This document shows, piece after piece, positions 29,317-62,696 of a stretch of DNA of 64,000 nucleotides. Position 1 is the first letter of the stretch, and each line of letters begins with the position of its first letter. The stretch is from assembly GCA_002989075.1 (NCBI GenBank), contig PSQN01000017.1, positions 2,115,453-2,179,452 of the forward strand, read 5' to 3'. The stretch comes from Arthonia radiata (lineage: Eukaryota > Ascomycota > Arthoniomycetes > Arthoniales > Arthoniaceae). The translations under genes were made by a program, and so were the position numbers. The notes under the pieces are model-generated. The model was not told the DNA's origin and made no database searches. It was given only the letters and a program-made list of their open reading frames with translations.

Positions 29317-31528
29317 TCACGCAATCAAAACCTCCTCCTCTTCGTACTCAGGCTCCTCTTCATTTTCATCTCCGTTCACTGCGTTCATAGCAGCACCATA
29401 CATCCCCTGCTGCTGCTCATACCACGCATCGAAGCTTCCCGGGTCTCTCTTCATCTTCCAATTCCCAGGTCCCATCGTCTGCTGGTTGCGACGAGCCGTA
29501 ATGGTCGAGCAGCCGACGGTATTCCACACGCTTGTGCCAGCGGGACAGTCGCCATAGATGCTGCTCACGCCGTAGATGGGCATGGCGGTCGAGCCACCAC
29601 CGCACGCCTCGCCTGCGTTGCCTGGGCACGGCGTAGGGCTGGAGAAGCAAGCGGCTGCTGCGGTCGTGGTCGCTGAGGCCGCGATGTTCTCGCCGCAGTA
29701 GCATTGGCTGCCTGTAATTTTGTCAGTCAACAGCAAGCAAACACAAACAGACCAGGTGAAACCTACCAGAAACGATACCAAAGTTAGTATGATTAAAGCA
29801 AATGTTCGCGCACACCTCCAAGCTCATCGGGTTCCTATGAGGGTTCAGTGGCAGTGGTGGGTTGGCCGCATCGAATGGATAGCAAGCACGGTAGCGATAT
29901 GGCTTGAGATTGACGGGCGTTGCGCTGGCCCTGATGCTGGACTTGCTAGCCGATGAGACGGAGCGGACGGAGCTGACAGACGCCCTGCTCACGGAAGCGC
30001 GCGAGTTAGCAGATGAGCGACTGGCAGAAACGACGGACTGGCTGGAGGCGCGGGAGACGGAGGAGATTGAGCGGATGGAGGACAGCGAGGCGGCGACCGA
30101 GGAGACCGAGGCACGCGCTGAGGATCTGCTGGCGCTCGCGGATGATTGGGACGCGCTCCTGGAGGAGGCGGACGAGGAGCGGATGCTGGCGAGAGAGGTG
30201 CGGGAGGCGCGCGCTGAGGAGATGGAGGAGACGCGCACGACGCTGTTGGAGGAGATGATGGCTCTGCGTGACGAGAGCGATGAGGAAAGCGACGAGCTGC
30301 GCGCTGAGACACTGGCCCTGGCTGAGGAGAGCGAAGCAGCGTGCGACGAGCTGCGAGAGGAGACGCTGGCTCGGACTGAGGACCTGGACGCTGATGCTGA
30401 AGACTTGGACACAGACGTAGCCGAGCGGCGTGAGCTGACAGATGCGCTAGCGGACGAGTGCGACGAGACGCGCTGCGACACCGACGAGACCCGCGAGATC
30501 GAAGAAATGGACCGGACCGACGAGAACGAGACCCTTGACGAGCTGCGCGAGGCCCGAGACGCAGATTGCGAGGACGTCGCTAGCGCACGGGACGAGCTCC
30601 TCGACACGCGTGACAAGGAGGCTGAGGATGAAGCGACCGAGCGCGAAGACGACGCCACAACCCTTGAGGAGCTTCTCGACAGCTGCGAACTGATTTTGGA
30701 GACTGAGACGGACGAGCGCGACGCGCGGGCGCTAGAGATGGAGGACGAGCGAGCGATAGAGGCAGAGACAACAGAATTGGAGGCCACTGACCTCGAAGAG
30801 GAGGCGGAGATCCTGGAAATGCTTTGTGCCGAGCTTGCAGACACTCGCGACGCGCTGACGGAGTTGCGAGAGGCGCTTTGGACGCTAGAGGCCGAGGCAC
30901 GCGAGGAGAGATAGGACACTCGAGAGACGCTGGCGGCGCTAGACGCTGAGACTCGAGATGAGCTGGCAGAGGCGCGAGAGACGCTTTCTGAGCTTTGCGC
31001 GGATATGTATGATTGTGATGCTGAGGAGCGGCTTGCGGCGATGACGGAGGACCAGGAGGAGCGCGAGGCTGCTACTGCGGAAGAGCTCTGAGCTGCGGCG
31101 AGCGCGCGGTTGTAGAAGAGACCGGCGAACCCATTGCCACCGCAGGGTTGAGTTGTGTTGGAGTCGCAAGGTAAGTTGCAGTTCGACTCGGCCGTCGGCG
31201 AGGCGTAGATGTTAACGGCGTTACCACAGTAGCATTGCGAGGTGTACTCCACGGCAGCGTAGGCGAAGTTGTTAGTCGCGCATGTCTGGATACACCATTG
31301 CAGTGTCTCGACGCCAGTGCCATCGTAATAGTTCGGGAGGATGTACTAATGCCAGCTCGTCAGCACATGCTGCCCTTCAAGAATACTCTCAGAACATCCT
31401 TACACGGCGGGTAGCATCCTCTGCGTAGCAACCTTGGTAATCATAGGTGCCTGCGGTCGAACCAATCTAACATGAAAGCGTTAGCAATCATACGAACAGA
31501 CCTCGTACTGAGACGAGATTGATGGCAT
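29317..31528 (-). CDS. Double-WSC-domain protein with long serine-rich linker
   Basis: Read as complement(join(29317..29711,29767..31345,31404..31466,31502..31528)), 687 aa. WSC domain 1 (about residues 10-112) shows YQGCYAEDATRR, then CIQTCATNN, SQCYCGNAV and PCGGNGFAGLFYN. A linker of about 385 residues, mostly Ser/Ala/Arg/Val (SRASASS-like units), follows. WSC domain 2 (about 505-600) shows YRACYPFD, CANICFNHTNFGIVSG, SQCYCGENI and ACGGGSTAMPIYG. The tail ends in acidic EEEPEYEEEEV. WSC domains bind wall glycans, and fungal sensors of this type are usually membrane-anchored. I see no transmembrane helix, GPI-like tail or signal peptide: the first exon (MPSISSQYE) is the best in-phase ATG, so a true 5' exon may be missed. 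The WSC assignment is firm; the N-terminus is not. Confidence 0.75.
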
Positions 31529-48840: not shown

Positions 48841-50587
48841 ATGGCTGCTTTCGAGGAAATTCTGATGGCGGTAAGCTCACTTATTCACGAGCGTTAAAAC
48901 ACCGAAGCATGTTACTGAATAAGGGAAGACAATCATACTGCTGGCAACATACATCATCTACAGATTTCATTTCGACTCTCTGAGCTCTTACCCAGGCCCG
49001 AAACTATGGGCACTCACACAGTTTCCGTGGCATCTTCACAACATCAAAGGCACGCTGCAGTTCCGACTCGAGGAACTCCACGAGAGATATGGGCCAGCCG
49101 TCCGAGTGGGCCCAAACGAGATCTCGTATGCTGCCACATCATCAGGCACATGGAAAGCCGTGCACGCGCACAAGCCTGAGATGCAGAAGAATTGGCCGGG
49201 CACCGGCATGGTGGGCCCACCTCGTGGAAAGCCTGGGCTTTTGACGGCTGGTACGGAGGCGGTGAGTCCAACCATGCTGTCCCAGTCGTCCTTCGGTCAT
49301 TGCGAGGGCTGACAAAGGACCTGCTAATACCACACTCACAGCACACCCGCATGCGCAAAACTCTTTTCCCCGCTTTCTCCGACAAAGCCCTCAGAGCGCA
49401 AGAAGACCTCATCAACGTCCACGTGCAAAAGCTGCTAACGATCGTATCCCGCGCGGCATCTGATTCGTCTTCACCACCCACAGATCTCGCCCTCCTCTTC
49501 AGTCTCACCACCTACGACGTAATCAGCGACCTGGCCTTCGGCGAGACCTTCGGCGGCCTCGACAACGTTCAAATGAGCCCCTGGGTAGCGGGCATCCTGC
49601 GCATGGTCAAATTCGCACCTTACGTGCAACTCATAGCGCACTGGGGCCTTTTTGAGCTCTTATTCAAGATGGCGGCGATGATGCCGAAGAGCCTGCAGCC
49701 CAAGGAGTCCGAGCACCGCGCGTTGCCGAAGCGGAAGGTCGACGCTCGCCTGAAGAGCCAGGACGCGAAAGGTCGGAGCGACTTTTTGGGGTTTATGCTG
49801 CCCGAGGGACGGGATGGGGAGGCTTCGATTGAGATGGATGAGCTGTATTCGAATGCAGTGCTATTGACGAACGCAGGCGCTGAGACGACTGCGACGCTGT
49901 TGATGGCCGTGATGTATCATCTACTGACAAATCCTGAGCCGTATGAGAAGCTGAAGAGTGAAATTCGGTCGACGTTCAAGCGGGCGGATGAGATTAATAT
50001 GATCTCAGCGGGCTCGCTGAAGTATCTGGGCTGTGTAGTGCAAGAGGCGCTGAGGATGCATCCGCCGCTGCCTGCGACGAGCTCGCGCGTTGTGCCGGGT
50101 GAGGGCGAGATGATTGCGGGGCGGTGGGTATCTGGAGGCGTAAGTCTTTTCGCATCGCACTAAGAGAGGCAAGGGTGATACTGACTGTTGGACAGACTGC
50201 CGTCGGCATCAACCACTGGAGCACCTACCATCTCTCTTCCAACTTCCACGATGCCGCTCGCTTCGTGCCCGAGCGATGGCTGCCGGATCGAGAGCGGCCG
50301 CCGCAGTATCAGGATGATCATCGCGATGTCTTGCAGCCGTTCTCGTATGGCAATCGGAATTGCCTTGGTCAAGGGTATGGCTTCTGTCCTGCGAGTAAGC
50401 GGCAATGCATGCTGACTTATGCAGACTGGCCCATGCGGAGGCCCACATTATCATCAGCCGTCTCGTGTTCAATTTTGACTTTGAGCTGCTGCCTGAGTCG
50501 AGGAATTGGCCGGATCAGAAGGCGTGGCTGTCGTGGGAGCGGGCGCCTTTACTTGTGAGGGTTAAGGCGCGATCAGCAGGAAGGTGA
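48841..50587 (+). CDS. Cytochrome P450 monooxygenase (first of the cluster)
   Basis: Five exons, join(48841..48870,48929..49261,49342..50139,50196..50374,50425..50587), 500 aa. The N-terminal helix (ILMATIILLATYIIYRFHF) anchors it in the ER, followed by a PGPK Pro-rich hinge. Core motifs: WPGTGM, DxHTRMRKTLFPAFSDKAL (C helix), the oxygen-binding helix NAGAETTATLL, the K-helix EALRMHPPLP with ExxR, PERW, and the heme loop FSYGNRNCLGQG with the Cys ligand. The first exon is only 10 codons. All junctions are needed to keep these motifs in frame; the last one completes the Gly after the heme loop. It resembles fungal clans that hydroxylate small lipophilic substrates. Substrate unknown; located 2.7 kb from a terpene cyclase. 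Confidence 0.92.
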
Positions 50588-50882
50588 TGGTTTCAGGGCT
50601 GGGGGTCTTACGCCGTCTTCAGCATGGTACGACCTTCTCACGGAGACGGAGACCATATTTGAAGCATAGGCCGCAGTGAACAGTGCGAGAGCATGCATCC
50701 AGTGCTGCATCTGTGAGAGAGCTGGGTGATGCCCAGAACGTACGTCGTACGAAGAGCACACGTGATGTGTACGAATGAATGAGAAACGATCTTCATGTTC
50801 AGACTGTATCACAGACGCTGTGTCTCTATTTAACGTGTAGTCTCCTCAATCTTCGCTCGCACCCCCTCGGATAGAAGACACC

Positions 50883-52697
50883 CTACTCAACAGTCACCCT
50901 CACCCCCTTCGTGCTCAACTTCGGCAGCGGTATCAAAAAGTCATGCGCCTGTAGCACGTCCGTCTCATCCGTCTCGTGGAGCTTCAGCTTCGGGCCACCT
51001 TTGCGGAACAGCACCGCGAGCGCCAGGCTCATCTCGGCTTGCGCAAGACTGTGAGACATCTTGTCAGCTTGACTTTCACCAAGAGGTGCTATGCGTACAG
51101 GGAAAGAGGCCACTTACTTCATCCCCAGACAGTTCCTCGAGCCCCGACAGAACGGCACCCAATTTCGCTGCATACGCGTCGGCGGACTGTCAAGCCAGCG
51201 CTCCGGCAGGAACTTCTCAGGCTGCGGATAGACCTCGGGGTCGCTGTGCATGAGATAGGCGGACATGCCAATGGGAACCTAGACGCTCGATGTCAGTTCC
51301 ATGTGTGTCCTCAGCGCAAAGTGAAGATGTAAACTCACGCCCGGCGGAATAACCCAGTCCTTGTACTGTATCGCGTTATCCGGGAACACGCGCGGAAGCC
51401 GGTGCATCACGCCATAGCTTAATCTCAGCGCCTCTTTGATCAGTGCCTGCAGGTATCCCACCTTCTCCAGCTCCGCCCAGCTCGGCACGCGCTCAGGGTA
51501 CTCGGCCATCACCTCACTCAACTCCTCTTGCAGCCGCTCCATCATCGCCGGGTTCGCGAGCACGTAGTACGACACGAAGCCCAGCGTGCGCGCCGTGCTG
51601 GCGGTGCCGCCGCCCAGCAAGACTTGCGCCTCTTTCGCGAGGCGCTCGTCGGATTGCTCGGACGCGGGCATGTCGCTGTTGACGATATAGCGGAAGAGGG
51701 AGGTGTGGACGTTCTCTTCTGTGGAGGGGGGCTTGGAGGTCTTGGCCGCGTTCTCGCGCTTCGCGTTTTGGACGTGTTGGAGAGCCACCGATTTGAAGCG
51801 GTTGAAGTACTGGCCGATGGGGAAAGCCCAGAGGAGCAGGCTCTCTGGGATCAAGCTTGCGATTCTGTGAGACCGTTAGTGATGGTGCACGTCGAGGATG
51901 ATGGAGCTGGCTTACTGCACGAGGATGGGAAAGCCTGTCATGAGCGGGATGGAGCGGACGATCATGTGGATGACATGGTACCATTCTGGTGCGAAGTTCG
52001 GGTCGTCGAGAAAGCTCTCTTGCCCGTCCCAGCAGATGCGGCCGATAATGTCGCCGGAGAAGGCAGAGAAGGCATGATCCAGGCGTATGACAGTGCCGGT
52101 GTCCGCAAGTTCGCGAAAGCGCTCTTCCAGTCTGCCGACTACCGCAGCCAGCATGGGCTGTAGGCGCTGGATACCCGCGCGGGAGAAGAACGGCTCGAGA
52201 GGCTTACGGCGACGCTTGTGAAGATCATGGTCCGTCGTTAGCAGGTGCGATCCTGACATCATTGTGTCAGCACGGTTGCAGTAAGACAGTGGCCCTTTCA
52301 TGTAGTTACCGTCGAAGTCAATGCCCTTGCAGAACACGTCGTAGTTCTCGGTACGACGCTTCGCCTCGGCCACGTAGATCTCATTATAGAACTCGGGGTC
52401 GTGCAGCGAAAGCTCGTCCGGGTTGACGCGAACAATGGGTCCGTACTTCTCGTGGAGCTTTTCGATCTCGAAGATGTATTTGCCATTGAGGACCCAATCA
52501 TAGTAGAACTCATACCAGTGAGAGATTGCAGCGATCTTGGGGCCTGGAAACTTGGACAATGGAGATAAATACAGTCTGTAGATAACGAGCCATGCTCCGT
52601 ATAAGACCGTTCCTCCCACGAGCAGCGTGATGAGAGTCGGCAGTTGAGGCAACGATAGCTTCTGCCTGAGTGCGAATGGAAGGTCCATGGTAGTCAT
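50883..52697 (-). CDS. Cytochrome P450 monooxygenase (second of the cluster)
   Basis: Four exons, complement(join(50883..51048,51118..51278,51339..51864,51916..52697)), 544 aa. An N-terminal membrane helix (LPTLITLLVGGTVLYGAWLVI) precedes LSPLSKFPGPKIAA. It resembles the trichodiene oxygenase-like group: YDWVLNGKYIFEIEKLHEKYGPIVRVNPDELS, DHDLHKRRRKPLEPFFSRAG, the I-helix LLGGGTASTARTL, EALRLSYGVMHRLPRV with ExxR, and heme loop FCRGSRNCLGMN. The usual I-helix acidic residue is Ala here. The start 52697 (MTTMDL) is preferred; the frame continues upstream to 52766. It runs convergent with the first P450 and divergent from the terpene cyclase, so it shares a promoter with the latter. Likely tailors the terpene, by context only. 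Confidence 0.92.
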
Positions 52698-53330
52698 ACT
52701 GAAGGCGTACTTCTTTGGATCTCTGAGCACCTGTAAGGACGAACTGGGGTTCTTTGTGTCTCTCAACCGAAGAGAAGCAGCTGGAAATCAGCAAACCTCG
52801 AAAAGATACCTGAAACGGCCGTCACGCTGGCGAAGCAGCGAGCGGCAGGTGTCCAAATTATTGATGAGAAGCAAGCACACCAATGGTAGGGCAGTCTCTC
52901 TCTTTCTCTCTGTCGCGCGTGTCAGGCAGTACCAAAGAGCTCGATCCGTGATTGGCAAAGGAGCGTGATGGGATGAGGCGGAATCAACAGCGTGTGAAGC
53001 ACGAGAAGCAGGCAGAATTTACCTGTGTACGCGGCCGAAGGATGTGTGGTGGCGGTGTCTGGATCGAGCCCACGGTCACAAAGTTGCCATGAGAGACAGA
53101 GGATTGTAAACTATCGGTGAGCTGAAATGTCGTCCTGTAGTCAGCCCCAACGACATCGTAGATCTGTTCGACTCCAGCCGGCTGACGTATATTAACCTTA
53201 ACTTTCCCGGCATCGTAAACAAAAGCCCTCTGCTAAATGCTCCTCGGCAAGAACTAGGAGACTATATTCCAATCTCTGGAGCAGTCGTCCCTTCGTTGCC
53301 CCTTACCTCGTCCTTCAAGAACAACACACC
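52698..53330. promoter_or_regulatory. Bidirectional promoter between P450 and terpene cyclase
   Basis: The 633-bp gap between divergent starts. Co-regulation of the two genes from it is plausible. A TATA-like CGTATATTAA lies about 53187-53196, ahead of the cyclase. CGGCCG-type sites occur near 53032 and 52817 but nothing decisive is seen. Confidence 0.45.
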
Positions 53331-54547
53331 ATGGACTACCGCTACTCCACGATTGTCGACCTCGACAGGTACGAGACCTTGGGCCTCTGCGATGAGATAC
53401 CGCTACGACAGCATCTCTGCACTGACCGGGAGGATGCCGGCGCGATCCGAGCCCAAAAAGATTGGGCGGCGTTGGTTGGCCCCTTGAAATCTTACCGCGG
53501 CGGGCTGGGGCCCGAGTACTCTTTCATGCAGGTCACAGTCCCGGAGTGCTTGCCGGACCGACTCGAAGTTATCTCATACGCAAACGAGTTTGCGTTTCTG
53601 TACGACGGTACGGTGACCGACCAGTATAAGCTTCCGAGACACGGACTAACTACCGACATAAGACCTTGTCGAAGATGCAGAGCTGAACGATGTACGAACC
53701 ACGATTATGCCTTGGGGGCATTTGCTTACTGTGGTATAGGAGCAGACATCAAGTGACAAGGTACTTGATGTCTTCCGCAGCCAAGAACGGCAGGAGTCAG
53801 GCGACGACCCACTCAGCAAAGGGGTGGCCGCAATGCGCCTGCGTGTGATGAAGCAAATGATGCAGATTGACAAAGAACGAGCCGAAATCTCCTTGAAGGC
53901 TTGGGCCACCTTCGTGCAACAAGCTTCGAGCCACGCGCGTCACCAGCCGTTCTCGACATTAGATCAGTATCTCCCTTGGCGAATTATTGACGCGGGCGAG
54001 ATGTAAGCACGCCTGTGGGCAGCCACTCTGACCGCTTTGGGAGAGCTGACAAGATCTGTGCAGGCTTTGGTATGGCACCGTGACTTTTGGCATGGGCCTC
54101 ACCATCCCGCCCGAGCACCTGGATTATTGCATGAAGCTGACGCGACCTGCTTTTGCGGCGCTCAGCTTAGCGAACGATCTCCTCTCCTGGCCTAAAGAGA
54201 AAATTGCTGCTGAGGAAGCTGGGCAGACTCATGTCGTCAACGCCATCTGGGTGTTGATGGACGAACTTGACATTAGCGAGGAGAAAGCAAAGGAGATCTG
54301 CCGCGAAAAGACAAGAGAGTCTGTCGCCGCGTATCGGAAGACTGTCGAGCGGACCAAGGGCGACGAGTCATTGCCAGCTGCTCTTCGTGCCTACGTGGAG
54401 GCAATGCAGTACAGCATCAGCGGAAACGTGGTGTGGAGCCTGCAGTGTCCTCGTTACCACCCCACAGCCAGGTTTTCCGAGTCGCAATGGCGGATGATGC
54501 GGGAAGTGTGCCACGGCACGAATCGTGGCGTGAAATCACTCAATTGA
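53331..54547 (+). CDS. Class I terpene cyclase (stand-alone, similar to cyclase half of fungal bifunctional terpene synthases)
   Basis: Four exons, join(53331..53607,53663..53691,53740..54002,54064..54547), 350 aa. Exon 2 is only 29 nt. Splicing restores the first metal motif: exon 1 ends in the first codon base of the second Asp, giving FAFLYDDLVEDAELND. The second motif is ANDLLSWPKE (NDxxSxxxE). The C-terminal region ISGNVVWSLQCPRYHPT matches the conserved end of fungal cyclase domains of fusicoccadiene/ophiobolin-type synthases. No prenyltransferase domain follows; the frame stops at 54547. Such enzymes ionise a prenyl diphosphate and cyclise it with Mg2+. The preferred chain length (C20 or C15) cannot be read from sequence. 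Neighbouring P450s, SDR and transporter suggest a small cluster. Confidence 0.92.
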
Positions 54548-55018
54548 TCACCATTGGTAGCTCCTGAAGGATGGCAGTAGATGTACGTACCTCTCAAATC
54601 TCGAGCTGTGGTTGAGATGTGGAACGAATTGCCTCAGAGACGATCCCCGGTCTTGCCCAAACACAGTCTAGCGGCTCGCCAGTCGGTCGCGTCGAGAGGG
54701 CACTAAGCCCAGTGCGTCCACACCCCTATCCCTCTTTCCACTCAACTTTGCTACTCCTTGTCATTCACTGCATAAGCAGGCAGATTCTCCATGTCCTGCT
54801 TCTCGGCCCCCAAAAATATGTTCGCCGGAGCTGTTCCTCCTCAACAAGTATCTCAGCACTGACCGCAACCTCAGCTTAATGAGGGCGACGCGGCACAACA
54901 TGGGGACGGCCCTCTTGAGGGTGCGGGGCGCTGCCTCCTGTTATCTTCCTGCGCTCGATGTTGTTCAGATCAAGGAAAACACCGTTCGCCTTGATAACCT
55001 TCTCAGCGCGTGAGGACA
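54548..55018. other. Intergenic downstream of the terpene cyclase
   Basis: A 471-bp gap without a supported gene. It should hold the cyclase 3' UTR and the promoter for the Rhodopsin-domain gene. No feature is recognised. Confidence 0.5.
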
Positions 55019-56487
55019 ATGGCGAGCCACATGGATCCTTCAAAGACCCCATTGGCAAGGCCACCGCCTGGTCAGCGGAGCAATCTTGTAGATCCACCTT
55101 CCCTGACTGCGAACGTTCTTGCATGCCATATCATATGCCTCTTTTTCGCGACGTTATGCACCGGTATACGCCTGTATACGCGGCGGTTCATCATTCACAA
55201 GCTTGGTCTAGATGACTGTGAGGACTTCCGATCTCAAACGCAAGGACATCATTTGCTGACGTTGCACTTCGCCAGATCTTTGCATCTTCTCATGGGTAGG
55301 TGTCAATGATCAAGCAGCGAAGCTCTCACTTATGTTGAAGTAGCTCCTGACCATCGTTTTTTCTGGCTTGACCCTTGAAGGTAAGTTCTTATAGATCTTA
55401 CTGTCTAATGGCTGACGTTTGCTAATGCGCTGTGCAGCAAACCATCAAGGCATGGGAAGGTACATGTGGGATATTCCATACTCACATCTCGCTCCAATTC
55501 GAAAGGTATGCTTCACTTAAGCGGCAAGCGCGCTGGATGACGCTGACATGCTTGCGAAAGCCCTTCGTAATCGCCGAGTGGATCTACCTCATCGAAGCAG
55601 CTTCCATCAAGCTTTCTTGCATCGTCTTCTTCAGGCGCATCTTTGGCCGTGATCAGATCATGAAGTTTCTCGCGAACTTTGGCATTGGCTTCGTCCTTCT
55701 ATCGGCGAACTCAGTTCTCGTCGCCACGATAATGAACTGTATTCCAGTCGCGAAGAACTGGGACCCAACACTTCCGGGTACTTGTTTGCCGCCGGAGGGC
55801 TTGCCGTATGCATCTGGAGCTCTCAATGTCGTCACGGACATCTACATCGTCGTGGTCCCCCTGTTTCGTGTTTGGAAGCTGAATATGAGCTTCGCAAAGA
55901 AGATGAGGTTGGTGGTGTTGTTTGGTCTCGGCGTCGTGTGAGTGATTCATTTGAAACGGTTGATATTGGAAACTACTGATAGCGAGCGATCAATAGCGCC
56001 GTTGCTTGCAGCATCACACGTCTCGCGATGACATATATCCTCTTCGTCAACGCAGACAAGTTCTGGAACACAACGATCATTTCCTGGTTTTCGTAAGTGC
56101 ATGATGCTCAAATGCCCCAGGGTAATCGTGAAGTGAGTGATCTGTGAGCTGACAATACTCTGTAGCGTGATCGAAGTCAACATTGGCATCATCTGCGCCA
56201 GCCTTCTCTCGTTCCCCGCATTCATCGATAAGCATTGGCCAGACTCCGTCAGCAGAAGCATTCAGAGGCTATTCTCAGCCACATTCAGGCGGCACTCCGG
56301 CGACTCGCCAGAAGCAGGAAACACTCGCCACGCTCCCCCTCCTAAGGCCGGAGAGCGGGAGACTCACCAACTGTCGAACATCATTGATGCATATCGACGA
56401 GACTCGGCTCACACTGGAAGTCACATTCGAGATGAGTCTGGCAGCGAAGCAGAGATCGGTCTCCGTGAAGGCGAGCGCATGTACTGA
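55019..56487 (+). CDS. Rhodopsin-domain integral membrane protein (fungal PTH11/SAT4-like family)
   Basis: Seven exons, join(55019..55217,55276..55295,55344..55380,55438..55505,55561..55937,55997..56092,56166..56487), 372 aa. Exons 2 and 3 are just 20 and 37 nt, both required to keep the helices in frame. Seven hydrophobic segments can be counted, with hallmarks TGIRLYTRRFIIHKLGLDD, GMGRYMWDIPYSHL, PFVIAEWIYLIEAASIKLSCIVFFRRIF, ATIMNCIPVAKNWDP, and the late VVTDIYIVVVPLFRVWKL. This is the fungal Rhodopsin_dom family, not the retinal opsins. A charged cytosolic tail of ~90 residues follows. Members are often found near secondary metabolite genes and may sense or transport; its function here is unknown. 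The start ATG at 55019 precedes a Pro-rich short tail; another in-frame ATG is at 55031. Confidence 0.85.
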
Positions 56488-56940
56488 ATGAGGTGCTGCG
56501 GCGGAAACTCAAAATTGAGTCTTGGCGGATGTGCTGGAGGTTAAGTATATGTCAGTATCGAGGCCGTGCTGTGCATGTTAAGACGGCGGTGATAGCCTGC
56601 GTGAACGCGTACCTCTCCTTGCAAATGCCAAGACCTCTAGTGCTGTAGCTATCTGCTATAGTCCTACTCCTAACTCAGGGCATCTTTAAGCCAATTTTTG
56701 AATGAATTGATCAGTATGCAAATGAACGAGCTCGTCAGGCAATCGATATACCAAGTCGAACAGTAGTGGGGCCCTGCCTTACATCTCACGTGCCGTGATT
56801 TTCTTTGTAAGGCGGAAGTGCAGCCGTTAACCTGCTCTCTCGTCCCAAGTCCAAAGCCTTGAATTGCGAATCGCCTGAGGTTCTAGTATAAAGGTCAAGT
56901 AGCATCAACATACACATAGAGCAAAAGCATAACTGCAATC
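56488..56940. promoter_or_regulatory. Intergenic with SDR promoter (TATAAA)
   Basis: A 453-bp gap. A TATAAA at 56887-56892 lies 49-54 bp before the ATG of the SDR gene. The transcription start would fall about 56915-56930. Confidence 0.6.
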
Positions 56941-58061
56941 ATGGGCATCACATATTCCCAGATGTTCCCCCCCGCCGCCGCCTTCACGGAAAAAGATCTC
57001 CCCAACCTCCACGGCAAAGTCTACCTAGTAACAGGCGCCACGTCAGGCATAGGCAAGTTCAACCCACACAAAATCACACCACACATCACTAAACAGCACT
57101 ACACCACACAACACAACACCACACCAACCAAGCAAAATTAACAACCACCAAAGGCAAAGAACTCGCCACCCTCCTCTACCACGCCGGCAGCACCGTCTGG
57201 ATCGCCGCTCGCTCCACCACCACCGCCACCGCCGCCATCACCGACATCCAATCGCGCCCGTCCCCTACCTCCACCCCCGGCGAACTCAAACCCCTCCTCA
57301 TCTCCCTCGACGACCTCACCACCATCAAACCCGCCGTCCAACACTTCTGCGCCAACTCCCCCCGCCTCGACGGTGAAGATGTCCCGCGCCTCGACGTCCT
57401 CTTCAACAACGCGGGCTGCTCGCTCGTCCCCGCCCACAGCAAATCCCCGCAGGGTTTCGAGCTCATGATGGCGACGAATTGCCTGGGCCCGTATCTGCTT
57501 ACGAAACTGCTGTATCCGTGTCTGACGGAGACGGCGCGCGCCAGAGACAGCGCGAAGGCGTCCGTCCGCGTCGTCTGGACCGCGTCGCAGTATATTGAGC
57601 TCTCCCCGCCGAAGGACGGCGTGATGGATTTGGCGCACCTGGAGCAGCCCTCACCAGACCAGGCGGTGAATTATGTCGATACGAAATTGGGGAATTGGTA
57701 CCTTGCTAGCGAGTTTGCGCGGGAGGAGTCTGCGGACGAGGGTAAGGTGCTGAATCTGGTGCAGAATCCAGGCAACCTGAATACGAATCTACTCAGGCAC
57801 GCGCCGAGGCTAATGCAGATCTGCGTGCGGCCGCTGCTGTATTCGGCGAAGCAGGGCGCGTATACGGAGTTGTTTGCGGGGCTGTCGCCGGAGGTGACGG
57901 AGGAGAAGAATGGGAGTTATGTCATTCCGTGGGGCCGGTTCCATCCGTGTCCGGATGAGAGATTGGTGAGGGGGCTGAAGGGGAAGGAGGAGGGAGGGAC
58001 GGGGCATGCGGCTGCGTTTCGGGAGTGGTGTGAGAAGAGTACGGAGAAGTATGCGTTGTAG
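56941..58061 (+). CDS. Short-chain dehydrogenase/reductase (SDR)
   Basis: Two exons, join(56941..57052,57154..58061), 339 aa. The Rossmann motif VTGATSGIGKELATLLY is restored only by splicing across an unusual GC-AG intron (donor G|GCAAGT). Other landmarks: VWIAARS, LDVLFNNAG (NNAG), the catalytic Ser region WTASQYI, Tyr-Lys in YVDTK, and the QNPGNLNTNL segment after it. Fungal relatives include retinol-dehydrogenase-like and secondary-metabolism SDRs. The protein has an N-terminal extension MGITYSQMFPPAAAFTEKDLP shared by this subgroup. It probably oxidises or reduces a hydroxyl/keto group; its location between the cyclase and transporter suggests a role in the terpenoid pathway, but that is inference. 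Confidence 0.9.
57053..57153 (+). other. GC-AG intron of the SDR gene, extremely C/A-rich
   Basis: 101 bp: donor GCAAGT after phase-1 exon end, acceptor CAAAG. The interior is almost purely C and A on the plus strand (CACCACA/CAACAC runs), with no T-rich tract before the acceptor. Needed to keep GIGKEL in frame. Confidence 0.8.
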
Positions 58062-58569
58062 ACCGATATGGTACTCGAAAAGACCTCTTGCTTCTACAGG
58101 CTTGACTCTTGGAGTTATGTGTGTGTTAAGTGGTCCGCAAGGCCTGACTTGGGTTTCTCTTCTCTTTTCTTGGGAGCACACAATGAGGGTTCGTGCAAGT
58201 TGTCTGTCAAAGGGGAGATTAGGCTTTTGGGCCAGCGACACTGAGCTGGCCAAAGTGTGATGCTTCGCTCCTTGAGACGTGAACAGCTTATACTCAACGA
58301 TCAGTCTGCGGGCATGGTTCAAGTGAAAAGAGACACAATCGTGAACAATCACGTATTGCAGAGATTGCTCAGTGGAGGGTGACAGATAAGATCAAGGTCT
58401 ATTCGCGGATTTGGGAAGCGCCATTGAGTATCACAGAATAGCAAAGATAATCAGACCCACTGGCCTGAGTTACATACTCTTGATTTTCTATGGACCAATC
58501 ACTGTAGCAAGCCAGTCTTCAACGTATGAGCAGGCAGATGGCGTCGAAGAGCAACAGTTGACACCCCAG
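58062..58569. other. Convergent intergenic region
   Basis: A 508-bp gap between the SDR (plus) and F-box-like (minus) 3' ends. It should hold 3' UTRs only. Confidence 0.55.
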
Positions 58570-60086
58570 TCAGTCCTCGACCCGACGGAGAAGCACGTCC
58601 GTTCCACGAGGAATACGCTGGTGAGGCACGCCTCGAATGCGACGCACCATCGTTTGCCAAGTTTCATTGCCCTCAAACTTGCTTCCACCATGCTTCCAGG
58701 CCCAGCCGAGCTCGTCACCCTCCAGATCGTCCCACGCTTCAGCTTTGCACTCATCAGCTGGGCACTCTGCACTGCAGTAGACGAAGTCGAACTCTTTCAA
58801 AGTGGAGCCGTGCCGCGTGACGAGGTTCTCGATCGTCTTACGTTTCAAGTTTCGGTCGAGAAAGATTCCCAGACGCAATTCAGCGAGGCGCGGCAGAGTG
58901 ATGGCTTGGAGCAAGCGATGTGTAATCGCTGTCTCTTGATTCTGTGGCAACGAATTTCTGCCTGCCCCTCCAGTGATCGTGAGGTCCAACCTAGTAACAG
59001 ACGAGCATGCACGGAAGGTGGTAGTCCACATTGCACCCTCTTCCTCCGGCTCTTCGAAGGGGAAGGACTTCTCGAGCGAACCGTGGTGAATGTCTGTGTA
59101 GCCATCCGCGGGCATGTGAAGCCGAAGACTAGTGATGGTTTGAAGCGAAGAGGCCAATCGGAAGGCCATGCGCCCCGGAAATGCGGTGCCGTTGCTCTCA
59201 CTGCCGATGATTACTTCGGTAATCTTACTCCCAAGCACTTCTTGGAGAAGGTGGGCAACAACGTCGACGTGATCCAGATTGGCGTTCACGAACATGAGCC
59301 CACTCTTATCCCTGCTCGTGTCGTTAGCTACACAACACCGTCATCGCAAGATTGTATTCACAAGATTGGCTCATTTGCGGCGTCCAATAAGACGGTCTGT
59401 GGGAAATCGTATGGAACATCGGGACGATAGTTCTGGAGACGCACGCTCCTGACACTCGGGAAAGCTTTGAATATGTCCACGAGTGCTTGTTTGCCGGCTG
59501 GAGAGGAAACGAAACGGGTAAAGTGGTCACATACATCCACTAGCCAGCATGTACATGCTTCAATGTGTGTGGCTTCGAACTCATTTTGCAGCACCTTTTG
59601 CGACACTTGTTTGCCAAAGGCGGACTCCACTCGGTAGCTCAAATCCTGTGGACGTCTTACCTTGTCCTTTAAGATCGAATACCACTCCCCACTGTGGAAG
59701 GGAAGACTGACTGTAATCTCTTCTGCCATCTCTCGCAGGCAATCGTTGTAAGAGATTGCTTGAAGCTGACGAATTGTCATCGGACTGAAGTCAAAGTCAA
59801 GGTTTCTGAAGCACTGAAAAAGCTCGTCTCGAAGTCGACTCGGCAATTTGCGAAGAATGAGAGAGTTGAGCTCTAAACAGACCAGGCGTAGTGAGAGAGC
59901 CCGCTTGCGTCGTTCTTTGGTTGGTGATTCGGAGCCCAACAGCATAAAGACGATATCCTGCTTCGTCTCTAACGGCAACATGAACAGGCCACACATCTGC
60001 ACTGGCCTAGTGGAAGTGGAGGCATCTGTCGACGTGACCTGCGGCGAGCCGGAAACCTGAGCCACTACCTCCTCCTCAGAAGCCAT
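58570..60086 (-). CDS. F-box-like protein of unknown function
   Basis: Two exons, complement(join(58570..59311,59362..60086)), 488 aa. The join falls within a Leu codon (donor GTGAAT, acceptor GAGCAG) and links two open frames that otherwise would look like separate genes. Residues ~35-80 resemble an F-box (LPLETKQDIVFMLLG and ALSLRLVCLELNSLI), the typical Skp1-binding module of SCF ligases. The rest contains leucine-rich stretches (SVRSVRLQNY, RLADLR-like LAELRLGIF) reminiscent of LRR-like repeats that bind substrates. Many fungal F-box paralogues show this layout without known targets. The 50-bp intron is close to the minimum length. The first ATG (60095) gives three more residues; the second is used here. 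Confidence 0.7.
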
Positions 60087-60639
60087 CTTGATCAACTAGC
60101 AAAGCAAAGGGAGGGAAGGACGAACATAGGAAAGAGAAGCAACTTCAGCCAAGATTCTCAAGAATCTCAAAGATGGAAGGTGCGCTAGGCAGTAGAGCGG
60201 TGAAGAGCATCACTGGCCGGTCACCCCTTCCTTTCTTGTTACACCGCCACGGCGAATCCGGAAATGCCTCGTTCGAAGGACTAGTGAATAGTGAAAGAAG
60301 CTGAAGATGTAAATACGCATCGCTGGAATGTCAAAGAAACGTATCTGCAGCTATGTGCAGTCTGCGAATATCGAATGGGCGGGGAAATCAGTGGGGTGAA
60401 CATAAGAATTCGACGACTGCGGCACATTGCCTAGCAGCTAGTGTCGAAACGCAAACGAAACTTTCCCAAGCGCTGCCATAGTAAGCGTTAACTTGATTGC
60501 ATTGAAACGAATGTCATACATGCTGGGTATCATCCACCTCATTCCTTTGTCACCGAAAACCCTCATGTACTAAATAACACCCAAATGCGTCACATGCTAG
60601 TCGTAGATCAGTGTGGTTGAGTTGGACGCTCTTCCCACT
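60087..60639. other. Intergenic upstream of the F-box-like gene
   Basis: A 553-bp tandem minus-strand gap that holds the F-box promoter and the MFS 3' end. No other feature is seen. Confidence 0.5.
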
Positions 60640-62696
60640 CTACAAACTCTGCTTGCCGCGCGTCTCCAGCGGCAGCGCACACATCGCCACGAAAGCCGCC
60701 AGGATGAGGCCACCCGACGCGAATATAGGTGCGCGAGGGTCGGAGGTCGAAGCGTAGATCGCCACTATCGGCGCAAGGAAGCCACCAACACGGTTCAACA
60801 TACTCGCGATACCCGTGCCTGTCCCGCGGTTGGGTGCCGGGAATACCTCGGGCGTGTAAGCGTAGAGGACGCCGTACATGATATTCTGGAAGAAGGAGAT
60901 GAGCGAGGAAAAGGCGAGCTGGTAGTTGGCATCCTTGCTGAGGGTGAACAGGTAGAGAAAGATGCCGGTGATGAGCGTAGCAGATGCCATGGTGCCTTTG
61001 CGCCCAATGTACTTGATGTCGACCGTGTAGTAAGCGATGGCGGAGCCGGGTACACCGACGACCGTCGTGATGGCGTAATCACGGTAGGTGGTGTGAGTAT
61101 CGCTGCCGCTAGAGCCAAGGTACTGCACCAGGAATGCATTGAAGAGTGGATAGCCCATTCCGATGGTGAACCACATGAACCAAAGCAGAGCCGTAGTGAG
61201 ACCGATTTTCCAGTTTCCGAAAAGTGGGTTGACGCGCTGCGTTGAGAACTTGCTAGCCGAGCGCTTGACGATCTCGAAGGCGGAGAGCTTGGTGTCACTG
61301 ACGCCAGCTTCAGGGTAGCCACCCACTTCGTTCAACACCTCCTCAGTCAACCACGTCTTTGTTTTGTTCTTGTAAGCCAGTCCTTGAACGACAGCCACAG
61401 CCTCGGCTTGGCGGCCACGGGAGAGAAGGAATTTGGGAGACTCGAACATCTGGAATACAAGGAAGCGCAGGATCCATTGTAAGAACGTAATGGCTCCAAG
61501 AGTGAAGGTGAAGTAACGCCAGCCCATATTGTTAGAGCGGCCACAACATTGTGGGACAGATAGATTGGGGTTCGTGGTGCATGACGGCAAGTCGCTGGAG
61601 CACGAGTAGTTGGGAACCTCACCCCAGGCGATCATGGAGGAGACGAGGGCACCAACAGGCCACCAAATGGAGAGAAGAGTGAGGAGATTGCCAGAGGCGA
61701 ATGGCAGGAACTCGAGAAAGAGGGCACCGTCGACTGGAAGATTCCCACCAATGCCAATGCCCAGGCAGGAGAACAGAGCGCAGACGCTGATCCAGCTGGT
61801 ACTACCACCTACCGCGGTACCGAAGAGAGCGCCGATGAACAGCGTGGTGTTGAAGGCAAACCGACGCCCAAGGACATCCGATGCTGTGCCCCAGAAAGAT
61901 GCGCCGAGGCAAAGACCGATGAAGAGCGAGAAAGTTGTGTAACGAACGTGAGTTGAGCTCACGCCGAACTCAGTCGCAAGCTGCGGCAAAGTGATGGCAA
62001 CACCCTGTCAGATGGATCGTCAGCGCACGATCACAACAGGCGGTATACAGAATTGTATGCGATGCTGTGTGACAAAGCTAAGATTGAAGACCACGTCTCC
62101 AAGCTTGTGCGTATGGAGAGAACAATCTGGTACTGACCTGTAACCAAAAGTTATCCGCGAACCAGCCGAAGCCACAGAGCACGAAAAGCTCCCATTGGTA
62201 TCGGCCCATACCCATGTCTTGTATGGCCTTGTTGATGACCTTGGATTTGCCTACCAGACGTCAGCGTCTGTCGTTATCCGTCCATGGGTCTGCGCACTGG
62301 GCGGGAAGAGAAATGTGAAGGAGGGCATGTCTTCGTCTGAAGGCGTCTAGGGATCAATCAACATTACGTACGATCGTAAGCGGTATTGCTAGCACCGAAA
62401 GCCGACAAGTCACCATCAATCTCAGACCTCAAGCCCTCGATGGTGTGAATGTCGTATGCGGCAACGCTGGACCGACGGGGGTGACCCTCGAACCCATTGT
62501 CATCAGAGCCGGAGCCAGAACCCTTCTCGGCATCACCAATGTCAATGGTTTTTTCGCCGTCTTTCTCGGCCTTCTCGACAACAGAGTGATGCCGCTGAGC
62601 GTGCTCGAGCGGGATGATACAATGCTTGTAGTCCTCGGTCGAGACGGTCTTGAACTGGCGGGCGAGGAAGTGGGGTAGATACTTGTGGAAAGGCAT
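60640..62696 (-). CDS. MFS transporter (carboxylate/sugar-like or SV2-like group)
   Basis: Three exons, complement(join(60640..62004,62138..62250,62372..62696)), 600 aa. Residues ~1-110 are a hydrophilic cytosolic tail. The joins rebuild SKVINKAIQDMGMGRYQW and GWFADNFWLQGVAITLPQL as helix 1. Twelve membrane segments follow, with the loop 2-3 motif ASDVLGRRFAFN (MFS signature A: GxxxDxxGRR), the middle cytosolic loop (RQAEAVAVVQGLAYKNKTKTWLTEE), and FNAFLVQYLG in the second half. The final helices end in CALPLETRGKQSL, close to the PETKG-like motif. An extracellular loop with four Cys (SCSSDLPSCTTN, CCG) is longer than usual. The substrate is unknown. If the cluster is real it may export or import a pathway compound. 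Confidence 0.88.

Follow-up and report, generated by a model that had tools for sequence, protein, structure and literature searches.

In Arthonia radiata, a stand-alone class I terpene cyclase (TC) lies among P450 and other genes, which raises the question of whether these genes form a terpenoid cluster, where the prenyl diphosphate for such a cyclase comes from, and what is made from it. A sequence-only reading of the window, a 64,000-nucleotide stretch of contig PSQN01000017.1, had placed six genes in a compact group between positions 48841 and 62696. Translation and hand splicing recovered all six at the claimed places and within these limits as intact spliced genes (two P450s, TC, a Fung_rhodopsin protein, an SDR and an MFS transporter), and the Pfam assignments concur. 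Position 48841 is the start codon of P450a and 62696 that of the MFS gene. The features are as follows:

48841..50587, + strand: P450a, 5 exons (48841-48870, 48929-49261, 49342-50139, 50196-50374, 50425-50587), 500 aa; Pfam p450, 203 bits
50883..52697, - strand: P450b, 4 exons (51916-52697, 51339-51864, 51118-51278, 50883-51048), 544 aa; Pfam p450, 182 bits
52698..53330, no strand: P450b/TC intergenic region between the start codons, 633 bp, from the coordinates
53331..54547, + strand: TC, stand-alone class I terpene cyclase, 4 exons (53331-53607, 53663-53691, 53740-54002, 54064-54547), 350 aa; Pfam Terpene_syn_C_2, 83.7 bits
55019..56487, + strand: fungal-rhodopsin-domain (PTH11-like) membrane protein, 7-exon model, 367 aa; Pfam Fung_rhodopsin, 177.7 bits
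56941..58061, + strand: SDR, 2 exons, 339 aa; Pfam adh_short, 57.4 bits
58570..60095, - strand: extra unnamed gene between SDR and MFS, given as two ORFs, 59358-60095 and 58570-59340
60640..62696, - strand: MFS transporter, 3 exons (62372-62696, 62138-62250, 60640-62004), 600 aa; Pfam MFS_1/Sugar_tr

The splice models are based on reading frame, intron ends and homology. The shortest exons of the rhodopsin-domain gene model are 20 nt, the SDR exons are joined over a GC-AG intron (57053-57153), and the Pfam assignment of the MFS protein comes from a scan of its long exon. P450a and P450b are convergent, with 295 bp from stop to stop, while P450b (start 52697, - strand) and TC (start 53331, + strand) are divergently arranged, as had been proposed, and the 633 bp between their starts may serve as a shared promoter region. 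The earlier description omitted the seventh gene on the - strand at 58570-60095, which gave zero matches in a Pfam scan at E 0.01.

Class I terpene cyclases hold Mg2+ with an Asp-rich motif and an NSE motif. Both were said to be intact in TC, and they are: D92-D-L-V-E-D97 and N227-D-L-L-S-W-P-K-E235. Intron 1 cuts the Asp-rich motif after the first base of the second Asp codon; a 29-nt exon (53663-53691), flanked by introns 55 and 48 nt long, encodes the rest of the motif. This short-exon model is supported by the alignment with the cyclase domain of the fusicoccadiene synthase PaFS, because the 23 residues from the motif to the next common Phe are aligned free of gaps in the two proteins. The PaFS match spans residues 1-337 of TC, approximately the whole crystallised PaFS cyclase domain, and TC stops 13 residues further on; it has no C-terminal prenyltransferase domain, and no PF00348 match lies within the window. 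TC thus consists, as first described, of a cyclase half with the prenyltransferase half missing.

A comparison with solved structures (E up to 0.1) matched 44 distinct sequences, of which the PaFS cyclase domain (PDB 5ER8) was the top match at 329.9 bits, leading the next different enzyme by 61 bits. Astellifadiene synthase (268.6 bits), stellatatriene synthase (266.2 bits) and the TvTS cyclase domain (261.4 bits) came next, variediene synthase (164.2 bits) and FgGS (158.4 bits) followed, and the aristolochene synthases were far weaker at about 70 bits. Identity was 157/337 (46.6%) to the PaFS cyclase domain and 130/327 to astellifadiene synthase. As judged by these alignments, TC is a stand-alone relative of the PaFS cyclase domain, its closest among solved structures, which indicates GGPP as substrate and a fusicoccane-type product. 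The terpene skeleton itself is not reliably readable from sequence, since the astellifadiene, stellatatriene and TvTS cyclases, whose products are quite different by name, match at 261-269 bits.

The top NCBIfam matches of TC were bacterial sesquiterpene synthases, at no more than 40 bits against cut-offs of at least 400. The genome gave no TC paralogue (E up to 10) and no further Terpene_syn_C_2 match in a profile search that caught only one TC exon, so that intron-rich genes can escape it. A search with PF06330 (TRI5) returned zero matches, as did its control, which matched in no genome, and none of 42 pattern matches in a scan of bacterial and archaeal genomes was confirmed as a TC relative. 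We found no published account of TC in a look through the literature, which was not designed to establish the locus as unpublished.

The prenyl diphosphate had been expected to come from elsewhere in the genome, and a search of the whole assembly (33.5 Mb, 16 contigs) for GGPP and FPP synthases agrees with this. The polyprenyl synthase family had three matches, on contigs C11, C15 and C9, and none within the window. By comparison with solved structures, one is FPPS-like (L001) and one long-chain-like (L003), while the GGPPS-like enzyme (L002) finds its top matches in GGPP synthases and in the GGPPS domains of bifunctional synthases from fungi. We take the ORFs adjoining the GGPPS gene, by eye, to encode a zinc-finger protein and a Y-family DNA polymerase, and on that account regard this gene as unlinked to TC. 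As these three are the only polyprenyl synthases found and none lies in the window, GGPP for TC is most likely supplied by the sole, unlinked GGPPS. A sesterterpene is an unlikely product of TC, given that the genome showed no likely source of GFPP.

A single residue bears on the ring closure. Residue 91 of TC, directly preceding D92, is Tyr, and the alignments place His at this position in PaFS, astellifadiene synthase and stellatatriene synthase. In PMC9551204, Tyr91 of the cyclase TadA is called essential for C2,6 closure, PaFS is noted to have His there, and the TadA Y91H variant accumulates an additional neutral bicyclic compound. By sequence likeness, Tyr91 suggests a TadA-like route in TC, and since the residue is Tyr as in TadA and not His, the product may be other than fusicoccadiene.

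Several other readings of TC have to be weighed against a fusicoccane-type product. TC could belong to the PaFS lineage of diterpene cyclases and yet make another skeleton, such as a bicyclic 5-11 system or a rearranged polycycle: 46.6% identity to PaFS leaves the identity of the product unassured, and the bicyclic compound described for TadA Y91H (PMC9551204) indicates that the lineage can stop early. The 61-bit lead of PaFS and the presence in TC of the Tyr91 of TadA, a 5-8-5 former, speak against this, and we regard it as unlikely. The use of FPP to make a sesquiterpene would be more improbable still. It has a precedent in the separate fungal cyclase TaTC6, reported in PMC7687074 to take FPP and not GGPP, an FPPS-like gene is present in the genome, and the aristolochene synthases do match TC, if only at about 70 bits, but the strong matches are PaFS, a C20 enzyme, and other chimeric-synthase cyclase domains. 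That TC stops just past the cyclase domain, with no prenyltransferase match in the window, would also suit a chimeric synthase that has decayed to a remnant and has no product; but the reading frame is complete, both motifs are present, the introns are plausible and the P450s next to TC are intact, which makes this reading very hard to credit.

The two P450s adjoining TC are far beyond chance. Among 200,000 random positions on contigs with a P450 match, one or more P450 loci lay within 5 kb in 2.4% of cases and two or more in 0.08%; the genome contains at least 65 P450 loci after merging, a lower bound obtained from 72 of 99 matches, the other 27 being further pieces of genes already included. 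The Fung_rhodopsin family is large, with at least 158 matches in the genome (150 of 201 candidates scored), and 126 loci merged from the matches listed entered the statistics. Among these, a Fung_rhodopsin gene lay within 5 kb of 13 of the 65 P450 loci (2.9 expected) and within 10 kb of 22 of them (5.4 expected), counts that were reached in 0 of 2,000 circular shifts in either case. Pairs of midpoints, again among the matches listed, were in 4.3-fold excess at 0-5 kb and 4.7-fold excess at 5-10 kb, and no excess was present at 10-200 kb. Lengths were known for 3 of the 16 contigs; the others were taken to end at their last match, so that 30.3 of 33.5 Mb entered the calculation and the expected values come out slightly high. 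These statistics rest on the two families, with no independent control gene family, and the base rates for SDR and MFS (19 of 177 and 9 of 257 candidates scored) were not used as controls. Because the excess is confined to 10 kb, the P450/rhodopsin pairing beside TC is part of a genome-wide tendency on the scale of gene clusters.

We regard TC and P450b as the core of the proposed cluster, to which P450a very probably belongs. The rhodopsin-domain protein and the SDR are possible members, whereas membership of the MFS gene is doubtful, because an unrelated gene intervenes and the best NCBIfam matches of its product are solute-symporter-like. These matches, to cation-transport and aromatic-acid symporter subfamilies, are below cut-off, as are the far lower ones to drug-efflux families, and the protein has one distant paralogue in the genome (32% identical). 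Of the layout first proposed, the compact group is supported and the transporter is a weak member. The unnamed gene at 58570-60095 is probably outside the pathway. On the other side, five ORFs scanned between 43.5 and 48.8 kb had no Pfam match, and ORFs in the 9 kb beyond the window presumably encode, by their appearance, an amino-acid permease and a chromatin-associated protein. No Zn2Cys6-like pattern was found within a single open stretch in any of the six frames of the window, a search that would overlook regulators of other types and a motif interrupted by an intron.

How far the pathway extends is the subject of a further reading, in which it consists of TC and P450b, perhaps with P450a, and the rhodopsin-domain, SDR and MFS genes are bystanders. 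The two-gene tad cluster described in PMC9551204 would be a model for this, the rhodopsin-domain family is large, with at least 158 genome matches, and the MFS gene is both parted from the SDR gene by an unrelated one and not efflux-like in its product. The co-location of P450 and rhodopsin-domain genes within 10 kb, far beyond chance genome-wide among the matches listed, argues the other way, as does PMC4617483, which lists PTH11-like genes among those syntenic in the diterpene synthase clusters of fungi. We consider the smaller pathway quite possible, if short of probable, and it is compatible with our best explanation.

That explanation, which we hold to be somewhat probable, is a small diterpenoid cluster with TC and P450b as its core and very probably P450a, in which TC is a stand-alone fusicoccane-type cyclase that converts GGPP to a 5-8-5 skeleton. 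In its favour, PMC4205885 reports that the cyclase domain of the chimeric synthase AbFS works when expressed by itself. From what was directly observed (the genes, the motifs, the closeness to PaFS, the missing prenyltransferase half and the genome inventory), we infer the substrate, the skeleton, the possible membership of the SDR and the rhodopsin-domain protein, and the following order of steps. TC would draw GGPP from the genome's single GGPPS-like enzyme, which is unlinked, ionise this substrate through Mg2+ bound at D92-D-L-V-E and at the NSE motif, and close it to the 5-8-5 tricyclic skeleton, for which Tyr91 makes a TadA-like, reprotonation-type C2,6 closure likelier than the PaFS route. 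Oxidation of the product would fall to P450b and P450a, and an alcohol or ketone arising from it may be a substrate of the SDR. In a bolder version, which we advance only tentatively, TC would come from the PaFS lineage, have lost the prenyltransferase half and be fed from the housekeeping pool of GGPP. By Tyr91-type reprotonation it would form an undescribed fusicoccane, and the two P450s, belonging to neither the brassicicene nor the sordarin set, would convert this hydrocarbon to a new diterpenoid.

PMC9551204 counts five distinct fusicoccane-type diterpene synthases before TadA and describes fusicoccanes as sought after as 14-3-3 modulators. Another natural stand-alone PaFS-like cyclase would help to show which residues decide C2,6 closure, and TC would help to tell whether stand-alone cyclases lost or never had a prenyltransferase half. 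Apart from its cyclase, the locus is ordinary fungal specialised metabolism.

Among known systems, PaFS of Phomopsis amygdali shares the metal motifs of TC, and its whole cyclase domain can be aligned to TC. It differs in His at residue 91, where TC has Tyr, and in the chain beyond the cyclase, which PMC8190136 describes as a 70-residue linker followed by a prenyltransferase half; TC has neither, and so is not a chimeric prenyltransferase-terpene synthase. TC does have both metal motifs and, among solved structures, PaFS as its nearest sequence, as would be expected of a member of the fungal fusicoccane-type diterpene synthases, a group that includes PaFS, AbFS, SdnA, MgMS and TadA. The bsc clusters of Alternaria brassicicola and Mycosphaerella fijiensis (as described in PMC5006380 and PMC8951520) also come from filamentous fungi and also pair P450s with a cyclase resembling fusicoccadiene synthase, but they have the chimeric AbFS, four or five P450s, a dioxygenase and an O-methyltransferase, against a stand-alone cyclase and two P450s here. 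Sordarin clusters, likened to the TC locus by description, also pair a diterpene cyclase with P450s; according to PMC9095873, their SdnA converts GGPP to the 5-8-5 hydrocarbon cycloaraneosene, one cluster includes the GGPPS SdnC and compact ones are without a GGPPS gene, but they have four P450s, the Diels-Alderase SdnG, a glycosyltransferase and a methyltransferase. A Pfam scan of 18 proteins or ORFs at the TC locus found no dioxygenase, methyltransferase or glycosyltransferase, and with only two P450s the gene sets of the bsc and sordarin types are not found there.

A further comparison, by description, is the tad cluster of Talaromyces wortmannii, in which a fusicoccane-type cyclase with Tyr91, TadA, lies beside a P450, TadB (PMC9551204). 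That cluster consists of two genes with one P450, and the TC locus has two P450s; a layout of a cyclase next to a P450, with no polyprenyl synthase in the window, would suit a cluster of this type. An added GGPPS raised the product five-fold (PMC9551204), which suggests a separate source of GGPP for TadA, and from the published experiments TadA and SdnA are probably single-domain enzymes. Stand-alone fusicoccane-type cyclases with adjacent P450s thus appear to be known, in TadA/TadB and SdnA, and the view that the present layout has no known counterpart is not borne out, given these published fusicoccane-type cyclases that have P450s as neighbours and were co-expressed with a separate GGPP synthase (PMC9095873 and PMC9551204). 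The TC cluster looks like an unexplored example of such a system, not a new kind.

Co-location statistics were computed across the whole Arthonia radiata assembly for one family pair, P450 genes and fungal rhodopsin domain genes. Among the matches listed, a fungal rhodopsin domain gene lies within 5 kb of 13 of the 65 P450 loci, against 2.9 expected, and within 10 kb of 22 of the 65, against 5.4 expected. The 5-kb count of 13 was reached in none of 2,000 circular shifts, and the matches listed showed no excess of such pairs at 10 to 200 kb. This genome-wide co-location with P450 genes suggests that many fungal rhodopsin domain membrane proteins of A. radiata reside in biosynthetic clusters.

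Within the window, the second half of the cyclase metal-binding motif (D92-D-L-V-E-D97) falls on a 29-nt exon (53663-53691) that automatic gene callers could easily overlook, and the best gene model for the SDR features a GC-AG intron (57053-57153). Elsewhere in the window, one further open reading frame was recorded:

29723-31345, minus strand, a Cys-rich part followed by a long Ser/Ala/Arg-rich part

By eye, we take the Cys-rich part to resemble a WSC domain.

The first P450 (48841-50587) carries a presumed I-helix motif of the usual form, AGAETT. Its top-scoring paralogue, locus L016 (G000:C5:695362-696936), is 41% identical across residues 17-313 and looks like a pseudogene. The heme loop of L016 has no Cys, and an inner part of ∼300 bp matches the P450 on the opposite strand only, as if inverted in place; a search for a long inverted repeat flanking this part found none. 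P450 I-helix motifs usually include an acid that is absent from the presumed I-helix of the second P450 (50883-52697), GGGTASTAR, for which the corresponding sequences in two paralogues are AATESTAK and GAGAAPISK.
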